From positions 1 to 13,166 of the forward strand of contig CAMGTS010000017.1 of the NCBI GenBank assembly GCA_946062035.1: a stretch of 13,166 nucleotides of DNA. The letters run 5' to 3'. This document shows, piece after piece, positions 9,986 through 13,166 of the stretch. The position numbers and the translations under genes were made by a program. Origin of the DNA: an uncultured Bacteroidales bacterium (GTDB lineage: Bacteria; Bacteroidota; Bacteroidia; Bacteroidales; UBA932). The notes beneath the pieces are model-generated. The model saw only the letters and a list, made by a program, of their open reading frames with translations, searched no databases and had not been told where the DNA came from. Numbering within the stretch: position 1 is the stretch's first letter; the number at the start of each line of letters is the position of its first letter.

Positions 9986-9993
9986 TATTTTTG
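9986..9993 (+). promoter_or_regulatory. Candidate -7 box (TATTTTTG) directly before the ybhN-like ATG
   Basis: TATTTTTG fits TAnnTTTG and ends 6 nt before the ATG at 10000. As for pcm, the predicted transcript would start at or next to the start codon. No clear -33 TTTG is found. The TTG at 9991, a possible alternative start, lies inside this box, which argues against it. Confidence 0.42.
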
Positions 9994-9999
9994 CTTTCG

Positions 10000-11073
10000 A
10001 TGCAAACAAATCGGAATCCACATCCAACAGACCTCAGAAGTCCGCGCAAACGATTGTCCGCCAAAAGTGTTATTGTCTATCTCGCAATGCTTGTGCTGAC
10101 GATAGCGCTTCTCTATCTGAGTTTTAGAGGGGTCAAGTGGGATGAGTTCGCAGACGGGCTTTCAAATTGCCGCTGGGAATGGATAGCGTTGTCGATGGGA
10201 TTCGGTGTGGCAGGATTCGCCATAAGGGCTTTAAGATGGAAAATGCTGCTTTTGCAATTAGATAAAAAAGCATCCTTCATATCCGCATATCAAGGTGTTA
10301 CAATCGGTAATCTCGCAAACTTCGCACTGCCACGTGTTGGAGAGATAGTACGTTGCGGAGTCGCATCCAAAGCTAAAAAAAGTGACATCACTATAGAGGG
10401 TGCCATAGGAACGGTAATAGTTGAAAGGACATGGGATTTGTTGTGCCTTGTGATTCTATCGGTGTTATTCGTATTCTTCTCTTGGAATAAATTCGGAGAA
10501 TTCATCAAAGCTCAGATATTCAATACATCCCGTTCGGCTGACGGAACTTCGGCTGTATGGCTCGTTGTGATGCTGACAGCTGCTGTAATATTGGCGGTCG
10601 CATTTATAGTTTCCATTTATGCTTACCGGAAAAAAATCGAGAAATGGAAGCTCGGCGCTAAATTGTTGGGATTTTGCAGAAAACTTTGGGATGGAATAAC
10701 AGCGGCGTTCAGGATGAAAAACAAATCTGCTTTCTTTATCCTGACAATACTTTTATGGGGAAGTTTCCTGGTCACAAGCGTATGCACCATCAAGGCTTTT
10801 CCTGCATTTGCCGGATTGAATTGGAGCGACGCTTTGTTTTTAATGATCGCAGGCAGTTTAGGATGGGCTGTCCCGGTTCAGGGCGGTATAGGTTCCTATC
10901 ATTTTATCGTGAGCCTTGCGCTTGTTCAGGTTTATGCCACAACCCAATCGGACGGACTCGTATTCGCTACCATATCACACGAGAGTCAGGCGGTTGTAAT
11001 GATACTGTGCGGAGCCGTATCTCTGATACATTTTCTTTTAAAAAACAGAACTTTGACCAAACCTACAGAGTAA
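10000..11073 (+). CDS. YbhN / LPG-synthase-TM-type integral membrane protein
   Basis: A 357-residue polytopic inner-membrane protein of the lysylphosphatidylglycerol synthase transmembrane (YbhN/UPF0104) family. About seven to nine hydrophobic segments are seen (roughly 22-42, 58-78, 91-112, 140-161, 185-207, 243-263, 276-295, 299-317, 327-347). Family-like conserved stretches are RALRWKMLL (76-84), GNLANFALPRVGEIVR (103-118), VERTWDLL (141-148) and GGIGSYH (295-301). There is no cytosolic aminoacyl-transferase domain, so it is not an MprF-type aminoacyl-PG synthase; members are thought to move or handle lipids, with no function established for this one. ATG 10000 is preferred over TTG 9991, which lies in the -7 box. 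Its stop is 1 bp before the GH77 gene, implying co-transcription. Confidence 0.88.
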   Translation: MQTNRNPHPTDLRSPRKRLSAKSVIVYLAMLVLTIALLYLSFRGVKWDEFADGLSNCRWEWIALSMGFGVAGFAIRALRWKMLLLQLDKKASFISAYQGVTIGNLANFALPRVGEIVRCGVASKAKKSDITIEGAIGTVIVERTWDLLCLVILSVLFVFFSWNKFGEFIKAQIFNTSRSADGTSAVWLVVMLTAAVILAVAFIVSIYAYRKKIEKWKLGAKLLGFCRKLWDGITAAFRMKNKSAFFILTILLWGSFLVTSVCTIKAFPAFAGLNWSDALFLMIAGSLGWAVPVQGGIGSYHFIVSLALVQVYATTQSDGLVFATISHESQAVVMILCGAVSLIHFLLKNRTLTKPTE

Positions 11074-11074
11074 C

Positions 11075-13166
11075 ATGAATATCAAATTCAGGGTGAACAT
11101 CGACGTTGCCGAGGGCGAGCAGGCATATCTGACCGGCTCATCGCCGGTACTTGGAAAATACGATCCCGATAAGGCTTACAAACTTTTGAAAGCCGAGGGC
11201 GATAACAACTCCTCATATTGGAGTGCTGACATCTCATTTGACACCCAATTCGAAAGAATCCTTTTTTATAAATATTTTGTCAAAGACGCTTCGGGAACAA
11301 TAAGATATGAAGCCGGCGGAGGAAGAAGGCTCGCATTGAACTCTTCCGTCAGAAATGTCGAGACTCACGATGAATGGCAGCTCTGTACAAAAGAGAGCCC
11401 ATTCCTTACGGACCCTTTCGCCCATGTATTCTATGGAGCCAAATTCAGCCCTTATACCCAAACCCATAAACGTTCCTACGAACTCATAGTCAGGGCTGTA
11501 GTTCCTAATATTCCGGAGGGATACAGCATCGTGATGTGCGGAGATACCAAGGAACTTGGTAAGGGTAATCCTTCCAAAGGCGTGAAGATGAGTAGATTAA
11601 AAGGTTTGAAATGGATCGCCCACTTTCAGATAGACGGTATGGAGGGCAAGACATGGAACTACCGTTTTGTGAAGATTTGCGATGCGACTGGTGAGGCTGA
11701 GTTTGAAAAAAATGAAAAAAGGACTCTTACTCTGCCTAAGGTTGACAAATACGACACATACATTACGGAACACACAGATATTTGTTTCGCCCCGCATCAC
11801 CCGCACTATGCAGGTTGCACCATCCCTCTCTTTGCGCTGAGAAGCAAAGAGAGCTGCGGTATAGGAGAAATAGGAGATATCAAGCTGCTCGTCGATTGGG
11901 CGAAAAATTGCGGAATACGTATTCTTAATATCCTGCCCCTAAATGACACGTTGCAGCACTTCAATAGTTCCGATTCTTCTCCGTATAACGGTATATCTTC
12001 TTTCGGGCTGAATCCTATATACTTGTCACTTAAACCGTTAGGGACTTTGCGGGACGAGGCGAAAGCTAAAGAGGCGGCGGAAGAGATGCGTTCGCTTAAC
12101 CACCGTGCGATGGTTGACTATGAGGATGTCATAACTTTCAAGATGAGCTATCTGAAAGCCCTTTACAAAGAGCAGGGAATTGATGCCTCATCACAGCCGG
12201 GCTATTATAAATTTGTCAAGGAGAACAAAAACTGGCTTTTCTCGTATGCTACTTTCAGTGCGCTAAGAGACAGATACAAGACCGCTGATTTCAGAAAGTG
12301 GGGCGAACACTCTGTCTATAATCAGGAATTTGTGGAAAGTCTGTACAAAGGTCTCTCAAAAGACAAAGAGTTGGAGGACAGTTTCAGATTCTATATTTAT
12401 CTGCAATACAACCTTTACAATCAGATGGTTGAGGCTATAGGCCATGCTCATAAACAGGGAATCGCTCTCAAAGGGGAATTCCCTATGAATGTTTCCCCGA
12501 ATAGTGTTCCGGCTTGGAAATATCCTCATTATTTCAAATTCGGCACGAACTCTCCAGAAGAGCGATTATCTATTGAAATGTCTTCATGTACAGGAGCTTC
12601 CGCCCCTGTATTCAATTGGGAGGAGATGTCTCACGACAATTTTAAATGGTGGAGGAACAGGCTTCGTGCGATGACGGACTATTATGATCTGTATAGCATC
12701 GGGCGTATCGGCAAAGAGAGCGGCACGGCTGAGAATCCGTTTATAACAAAACTTCTCACCCAACTTGTAGCATCCTCAAGCATGATGGCCTGTGGAAAAT
12801 ATTCGATATCAGAAGAGAATGCGGAAATGTCCGAATTAGCGGGAGAATCCGAAATTGTGATGAAATCCAGAAGTATCCGCAAACAGTTGGAAGATCTTAA
12901 TGTACTCTCTTTAGAGGTGCCTACAGGGAAAATAGAAAACGACAATTATATAGGGAATGTCAACCCTCCGTATTTCAGCATATTCTCGACTTCGACCTGT
13001 AACAGCAAGACGCTGAGAATGTGGCTCGGGAAGGAGCTGAAAAGTAATTACTACAAGTCAGAAGATACAGGGGAATCATCATTCGACGCATCTGCGAAAG
13101 ATTGCGAGACAGCCATAAGGCAAGCTCTTGCGACTGAATCCATGTTCGTCATTATTCCTGTGCAGG
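11075..13166 (+). CDS. GH77 4-alpha-glucanotransferase homologue (malQ/DPE2-like), probable pseudoenzyme; 3' end outside window
   Basis: Open for 697 codons to the window edge. Domains: CBM20-like 1 (about 1-100; GSSPVLGKY 21-29, YEAGGGRR 78-85), CBM20-like 2 (about 132-222) and a GH77 barrel from about 247. Retained GH77 features are CGIGEIGDIKLLVDW (261-275), LPLNDT (287-292), SPYNGISSFGLNPIYL (302-317), KGEFP (466-470) and FNWEEM (513-518). The family normally disproportionates malto-oligosaccharides or maltose in the cytosol. Here the three expected catalytic carboxylates are gone: RIDH is SIGR (541-544), CGEDLG is CGKYSI (573-578), STHD is STCN (640-643). The usual segment of roughly 200 residues between the first two is missing. 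Activity as a transferase is therefore unlikely; a carbohydrate-binding or regulatory role is possible. It follows ybhN by 1 bp. No frameshift or stop is seen, so it is not an ordinary pseudogene. Confidence 0.9.
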   Translation, partial: MNIKFRVNIDVAEGEQAYLTGSSPVLGKYDPDKAYKLLKAEGDNNSSYWSADISFDTQFERILFYKYFVKDASGTIRYEAGGGRRLALNSSVRNVETHDEWQLCTKESPFLTDPFAHVFYGAKFSPYTQTHKRSYELIVRAVVPNIPEGYSIVMCGDTKELGKGNPSKGVKMSRLKGLKWIAHFQIDGMEGKTWNYRFVKICDATGEAEFEKNEKRTLTLPKVDKYDTYITEHTDICFAPHHPHYAGCTIPLFALRSKESCGIGEIGDIKLLVDWAKNCGIRILNILPLNDTLQHFNSSDSSPYNGISSFGLNPIYLSLKPLGTLRDEAKAKEAAEEMRSLNHRAMVDYEDVITFKMSYLKALYKEQGIDASSQPGYYKFVKENKNWLFSYATFSALRDRYKTADFRKWGEHSVYNQEFVESLYKGLSKDKELEDSFRFYIYLQYNLYNQMVEAIGHAHKQGIALKGEFPMNVSPNSVPAWKYPHYFKFGTNSPEERLSIEMSSCTGASAPVFNWEEMSHDNFKWWRNRLRAMTDYYDLYSIGRIGKESGTAENPFITKLLTQLVASSSMMACGKYSISEENAEMSELAGESEIVMKSRSIRKQLEDLNVLSLEVPTGKIENDNYIGNVNPPYFSIFSTSTCNSKTLRMWLGKELKSNYYKSEDTGESSFDASAKDCETAIRQALATESMFVIIPVQ

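Follow-up and report, generated by a model that had tools for sequence, protein, structure and literature searches.

Why should a bacterium maintain, as its only member of the family, a GH77 protein that has lost its catalytic residues? The question is raised by the window analysed here, a stretch of 13,166 nucleotides that makes up the whole of contig C17 (CAMGTS010000017.1) of an uncultured Bacteroidales bacterium (G000, GCA_946062035.1), a metagenome-assembled genome of 1.33 Mb in 208 contigs and 74% complete. The last gene of the window encodes two CBM20 domains followed by a GH77 domain, and all three catalytic carboxylates of the latter are replaced. We consider it probable that the product is a maintained pseudoenzyme, the sole GH77 protein of a glycogen-less clade of rumen Bacteroidales, now serving as a non-catalytic binding or adaptor protein. 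A fold that is predicted to be kept, catalytic residues that are lost and maintenance by selection characterise it as a pseudoenzyme. The features of the gene, all on the + strand, are as follows.

11075..13166, +: non-catalytic CBM20-CBM20-GH77 gene, 697 of its 757 codons lying before the contig end (open reading frame, Pfam, MalQ alignment)
11078..11362, +: CBM20-1, residues 2-96, with Y29, K66, Y78 and G82-R85, the better conserved CBM20 (Pfam, regional dN/dS, residue counts)
11384..11470, +: linker, residues 104-132, FLTDPFAHVFYG..FSPYTQTH, the most constrained segment (dN/dS 0.012, residue tallies)
11471..11779, +: CBM20-2, residues 133-235, with a degenerate starch-binding site (residue counts, weaker profile scores)
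11822..13165, +: GH77 domain, residues 250-697
12476..12478, +: E468, where the GDxP motif has an invariant Asp (all 40 non-catalytic sequences have E)
12518..12520, +: K482, fixed in the non-catalytic clade only (38/40 K, 2 R; residue counts)
12695..12706, +: S541-I-G543-R544, replacing the nucleophile motif RIDH (MalQ alignment)
12707..12790, +: shortened stretch of ~30 residues with the DPE2-type insertion deleted (against 110-133 in the intact genomes of the genus)
12791..12799, +: C573-G-K575, replacing the acid/base motif CGE (MalQ alignment)
12998..13003, +: C642-N643, replacing the third motif HD (MalQ alignment)

Catalytic residues and insertion of the GH77 domain

The reading frame at 11075-13165 reaches the contig end. 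A preliminary description of this DNA had taken it as a frame of 697 codons; it is indeed open throughout, but it is cut by the contig, and the full protein has 757 residues, as seen in the database protein P0016, which is identical to the window protein over the window part. The relatives P0017-P0019 (75-85% identity) are likewise of 757 residues. The window protein scores 225.4 bits with the Pfam model of GH77 (PF02446), against a cut-off of 25, and 86.1 bits with that of CBM20, and both N-terminal CBM20 stretches that mark a DPE2-type protein are confirmed. It reaches the cut-off of none of the 8 listed NCBIfam models. An intact relative (L034) is also under the cut-off of its 9 NCBIfam models, and hence the NCBIfam scores fail to separate intact from non-catalytic proteins. 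A predicted structure, a check that the preliminary description had proposed, suggests that the GH77 barrel fold is retained by the window-type protein; an AlphaFold model of the cut-off window protein, built from an alignment of 17 rows, had low confidence (pLDDT 61.9) and was set aside.

The catalytic triad of GH77 is comprised of an Asp nucleophile, a Glu acid/base and a further Asp, according to the available part of PMC8465469. D448, E496 and D548 of E. coli MalQ (L066) are aligned by MAFFT with G543, K575 and N643 of the window protein, which confirms the three replacements proposed earlier from motifs, with S541 starting at 12695 and N643 ending at 13003. Residue counts were made over 40 non-catalytic rows, G017 and its twin P0010 with their altered C-terminus having been dropped, and over 8 sister intact sequences, 24 other intact sequences (32 intact together) and 30 outgroup sequences. 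The nucleophile Asp is present in 32/32 intact and 0/40 non-catalytic sequences, far beyond chance, and the Arg and His next to it are each found in 0/40. The claim that every catalytic residue has been lost holds for the window protein and not for the clade as a whole, in which 15 of the 40 sequences have an acidic residue in the acid/base column (E in 6, D in 9) and the third column has D in 8/40 and E in 1/40. Otherwise the former catalytic columns are occupied by many different residues.

A feature that goes beyond the earlier observation is a deletion, some 80-105 residues long, that separates the first from the second catalytic position. The stretch from nucleophile to acid/base is 28-30 residues long in the 17 non-catalytic genomes of the genus vs 110-133 in the 19 intact ones, and the longest of the non-catalytic type, that of P0022, has 36 residues. 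The insertion of DPE2 is taken by us to sit between the same two catalytic residues. Arabidopsis DPE2 has the domain order of the window protein, two CBM20 domains and GH77, with an insertion of ~170 residues, and is reported in the available part of PMC3789958 to need both the triad and the insertion for activity; the window protein is without either. The same CBM20-CBM20-GH77 order is found in the intact DPE2-type 4-alpha-glucanotransferases of G035, G001 and other Bacteroidales. Unlike the window type, the intact enzymes have the R-I-D-H, G-E-D and H-D motifs, the insertion and a complete W-K-W-N set in CBM20-2 (32/32), and are accompanied by glycogen enzymes. Judged from sequence, the window-type protein is non-catalytic and has evolved from a DPE2-like GH77 enzyme of the active type that occupied this locus.

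Two members of the clade depart from the rest. At the deletion site the protein of G034 (L037:7268-9532) has an extra insert of ~27 residues in which T, S, H and Q are abundant. The C-terminal end of the G017 protein (L040:7632-9695) is altered in comparison with its close relative G027, which may reflect faulty assembly or a genuine change of frame.

The clade, its glycogen enzymes and the selection on the gene

A quick tree search was run on 84 proteins, some of them near-copies and one pair identical; G008, G036, E. coli MalQ and P0051-P0074 were excluded. All 42 non-catalytic rows form one clade with an SH-aLRT support of 100, and its sister group is made up of eight intact rows (G035, G001, P0025-P0029 and P0031; own support 93, joint fork 100). 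Sequencing or assembly error was considered and rejected, as 17 genomes and 42 rows of one clade all show the non-catalytic state.

The genus sample consists of 39 genomes. GH77 is a single-copy gene in 36 of them, 19 with the intact and 17 with the non-catalytic type, and three are without the gene. The preliminary description had proposed a regulator of a true MalQ and a search for a second, intact malQ; with PF02446 none was found in the 17 non-catalytic genomes, which are 73-96% complete, and a missed copy would have to be absent from all 17 of these incomplete genomes. With one GH77 gene per genome, of the non-catalytic type, a regulator of a true MalQ is not supported. CBM20 matches occur in 34/39 genomes, every one inside the GH77 gene. 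The GH77 proteins of G008 and G036 are of the intact type with no CBM20 match; the former is short (618 residues) and the latter leaves its contig before the third motif.

The loss of catalysis goes with the absence of glycogen enzymes. GT35 phosphorylase (PF00343), GDE_C (PF06202) and GH13 (PF00128) are each found in 19/39 genomes and GH57 (PF03065) in 18/39, all with intact GH77, G005 being the intact genome with no GH57 match. These four profiles gave matches in 0/17 non-catalytic and 0/3 gene-less genomes, a GT3-type glycogen synthase not having been searched for. A second, longer GT5-like open reading frame (431-471 residues; 285 in G005) is also restricted to the 19 intact genomes. The four enzyme families and the glycosyltransferase are encoded within ~10 kb in G035 (1113233-1123266), and much of the pathway could therefore have gone in a single deletion. 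Additional GH13 genes with strong scores are present in G002 only (several, at G002:C52:4032-8411 and G002:C31:8965-10329), possibly a starch-use cluster.

An order-wide profile search of 247 evenly sampled genomes found matches in 117; among the matches listed none is of the non-catalytic type by score, the best one outside the window genome having 324.2 bits vs 1018.6 for the window. The forestomach of goat, yak or water buffalo is the stated source of 8/17 loci (16 non-catalytic and the intact one of G001), and RUG in record names is assumed by us to stand for rumen.

Selection on the gene was followed with pairwise NG86 estimates of dN/dS, the ratio of non-synonymous to synonymous divergence (omega), only for pairs with dS of 0.1-1.5, which are not independent of each other and leave out 101 of the 120 non-catalytic pairs. 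The median is 0.082 over 19 non-catalytic pairs vs 0.101 over 8 intact pairs; the neighbouring flippase-like gene gives 0.097 at non-catalytic and 0.096 at intact loci. A codon model fitted by maximum likelihood (ML) gives an omega of 0.097 for the non-catalytic vs 0.094 for the intact genes. The fourfold-site difference over the 120 non-catalytic pairs has a median of 0.62 and is in no case below 0.20. There is no stop within the matched frame in 17/17 non-catalytic genomes. Neither broken frames nor an omega near 1, the marks of a pseudogene, are seen, G017 alone having an altered end, and recent decay is rejected on both the pairwise and the ML omega. These results bear out the earlier view of a maintained pseudoenzyme, for which orthologues with the same substitutions and their dN/dS were to be sought: 17 genomes carry the non-catalytic type, with omega ~0.1. 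Intact orthologues in close relatives had been named as a possible sign of sequence error or recent decay. The outcome is mixed: intact relatives do exist, at 53-54% identity, but the loss dates far back, is common to the whole clade and is accompanied by purifying selection.

Regional omega, for which 8 non-catalytic pairs and 7 intact ones of moderate dS were selected and pooled, reveals where the constraint lies. The non-catalytic vs intact values are 0.054 vs 0.096 for CBM20-1, 0.012 vs 0.045 for the linker, 0.083 vs 0.120 for CBM20-2, 0.095 vs 0.099 for the first part of GH77, 0.103 vs 0.047 for its middle and 0.121 vs 0.091 for the part following the nucleophile; the mean identity of residues 541-640 is 0.43. 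Constraint is strong and has been relocated, CBM20-1 and the linker being tighter and the C-terminal half of GH77 looser than in the intact enzymes.

The locus and the losses of the gene

The gene directly upstream in the window encodes a membrane protein.

9991..11073, +: gene for an LPG_synthase_TM (flippase-like) membrane protein, immediately preceding GH77 (Pfam PF03706, 107.8 bits)

This gene precedes GH77 in 17/17 non-catalytic loci, and 16 of the 19 intact loci of the genus share the same arrangement. In 14/17 non-catalytic loci its stop and the start of GH77 share 4 nt, and in the window there is a 1-nt gap. The exceptions among intact genomes are G008 (L064) and G036 (L065), in which the LPG_synthase_TM gene is elsewhere, and G005, in which GH77 is on a short contig. 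At L056, L058 and L060 (G016, G025 and G023) the intact GH77 gene is separated from the LPG_synthase_TM gene by 635-669 nt, unlike in other members, and the non-catalytic gene of G034 is 28 nt from its upstream gene with no overlap.

In a tree of four flanking genes from 38 genomes, 11 rows of which have less than half of the columns, the 20 glycogen-less genomes form one clade (97/95), in accordance with one change. The LPG_synthase_TM gene of G061, G013 and G024 (L089, L090 and L091) is followed directly by a Peptidase_C26 gene, GH77 being cleanly gone. The history is one pathway loss, one switch to the non-catalytic state and three later gene losses. Compared with G034, in which GH77 is retained, five flanking proteins and the Peptidase_C26 of G061 show 92-96% identity.

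Possible functions of the protein

The residues of the two CBM20 domains and the linker give an indication of what has been kept. We take the site-1 residues of CBM20 to be Trp, Lys, Trp and Asn, as assigned after glucoamylase. In CBM20-2 this set is complete in 32/32 intact sequences; in the window it is replaced by G164, R197, F210 and K215, and in the 40 non-catalytic sequences the second Trp is found in none and the Asn in one. CBM20-1 has Y29, K66, Y/F78 and G83 at these positions, aromatics and Lys with no Trp, and the aromatic-Lys-aromatic set is conserved in the clade (Y29 39/40, K66 40/40, Y/F78 40/40). Counted over the non-catalytic, sister intact, other intact and outgroup sets (40/8/24/30), several N-terminal residues distinguish the first two sets: G82 (39/8/0/0), R85 (40/8/0/2), D113 (40/8/0/0), H117 (38/8/0/1), G121 (40/8/0/0), K176 (40/8/1/1) and Y29 (39/6/2/0). 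They are constrained, since they are invariant across a diverged clade. Another group of residues is fixed in the non-catalytic rows only, namely E468 (40/40), M471 (39/40), K482 (38/40) and S541 (38/40), each with 0/62 elsewhere.

A binding or adaptor role would have its business end in CBM20-1 and the linker leading to CBM20-2. The old GH77 barrel may have been retained as a folded platform, with its cleft refitted by the four residues fixed in the non-catalytic rows. The binding job probably started while the enzyme was still active, because the intact sister clade has the same N-terminal residues fixed, and it may have become the only job once glycogen was lost. The flippase-like membrane protein, putatively coupled in translation, would be the first candidate partner. 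A more specific course of events is put forward tentatively, as a somewhat less than even prospect: an exaptation in which the catalytic ancestor, in the state of G035 and G001, acquired a second job in CBM20-1 and the linker, glycogen was lost, and then catalysis, the insertion and the glucan site were shed, leaving a new non-glucan function, possibly at the membrane with the flippase-like protein.

Several observations weigh against the binding or adaptor explanation. The first Trp of CBM20-2 is still present in 29/40 non-catalytic sequences and the Lys in 14/40, and the decay of this site is therefore only partial. D113 and H117 are separated by one turn of a helix predicted at 113-119, and the fixed N-terminal residues could be structural rather than involved in binding; those common to the two sister clades are partly due to shared descent. 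The flippase-like neighbour is older than the loss of catalysis and of glycogen. It is upstream of GH77 in none of the 9 outgroup loci, eight of which have ~1.1-1.5 kb of upstream DNA and one (L102) none. According to the flanking-gene tree the GH77 gene was lost in three separate events within the glycogen-less clade, and such clean losses imply a gene that is useful and dispensable. Finally, the loss of glycogen and the loss of catalysis are each one event in the tree, which places their link beyond statistical test.

Alternative explanations differ mainly in what they make of the GH77 cleft and of CBM20-1. It is doubtful that the cleft has been remade into a new non-glucan binding or catalytic site, opened by the loss of the insertion: E468, M471, K482 and S541 do lie in cleft motifs that were switched and fixed in this clade only, Tyr304 of the SPY loop is present in 40/40 sequences and the fold is predicted to be intact, but the segment following the nucleophile is the least constrained of all, the variety of residues in the former catalytic columns is unfavourable to a precise new active site, and the switched residues may simply pack a vacated pocket. 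Continued glucanotransferase activity with other carboxylates of the cleft is extremely improbable. The nucleophile, its Arg and its His are absent from all 40 sequences, no alpha-glucan partner enzyme was found among those sought, and DPE2 deprived of its insertion is inactive and probably unfolded, the triad being needed as well, in the available part of PMC3789958; the predicted fold, the invariant E468 and the acidic residues that persist in the acid/base (15/40) and third (D in 8/40) columns are what can be said for it.

A glucan sensor, as the preliminary description had suggested, would use CBM20-1 to bind an alpha-glucan or maltodextrin, imported or made outside, and signal its presence. 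We regard this as unlikely, a sensor being poorly motivated in these genomes. In its favour, CBM20-1 keeps the aromatic-Lys-aromatic set; Arabidopsis DPE2 binds glucan via CBM20-1 and not CBM20-2 (available part of PMC3789958), and BAM9 serves as a precedent of a non-enzymatic regulator of starch breakdown (available part of PMC8774843). On the other hand CBM20-1 lacks the canonical Trp pair, in CBM20-2 the pair is broken, and with GT35, GDE, GH13 and GH57 all without a match none of these enzymes is left for a sensor to regulate. It is highly unlikely that the gene is a slowly decaying relic, drifting out of the genomes after its function went with glycogen. Three gene losses inside the glycogen-less clade, the looser C-terminal half of GH77, the altered end of G017, and the ~27-residue insert and lost 4-nt overlap of G034, the closest relative of the gene-less G061, are in agreement with decay. 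This reading is already disfavoured by an omega near 0.1 despite the extensive fourfold-site divergence, by frames with no stop in 17/17 genomes and by an N-terminal part under tighter constraint than that of the intact enzyme.

Most known pseudoenzymes are paralogues assisting an active sister. Here the sole copy went non-catalytic and outlived its pathway. Like the window protein, BAM4, BAM9 and ISA2 of plants, the last of them a non-catalytic partner of ISA1, keep the folds of carbohydrate enzymes without activity (for BAM9, the available part of PMC8774843); they work in a starch pathway that is still alive and have active paralogues at their side, whereas the window clade has no paralogue and none of the sought pathway enzymes was found. 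Non-catalytic relatives of starch enzymes are thus already known in plants, and a non-catalytic GH77 would be new to the literature searched: none is named among the entries listed from that open-licence literature, in which no paper brings amylomaltase and pseudoenzyme together. The occurrence of intact, non-catalytic and gene-less states within one genus offers a clean case for other roles of a glycogen enzyme, and should the exaptation be true, a GH77 protein would have acquired a new, non-glucan function. Annotation as 4-alpha-glucanotransferase by family name would wrongly assign maltodextrin metabolism to these rumen bacteria.

Another leftover of glycogen metabolism that is kept, like the window gene, is the GlgA-GT5 fragment retained in Bacteroidetes (available part of PMC11046441). 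In the current analysis a short open reading frame, in most cases of 279 residues and limited to the N-terminal GT5 starch-synthase domain, has been identified in 39/39 genomes (e.g. L095:6834-7658), including the 20 that lack the other glycogen enzymes. Unlike the window gene, it is a piece of a glycosyltransferase, lies at another locus and is present also where the glycogen enzymes are intact. The copy in the window genome (L094, G000:C93:5232-5708) has 170 codons, with a stop ~30 nt before the contig end.

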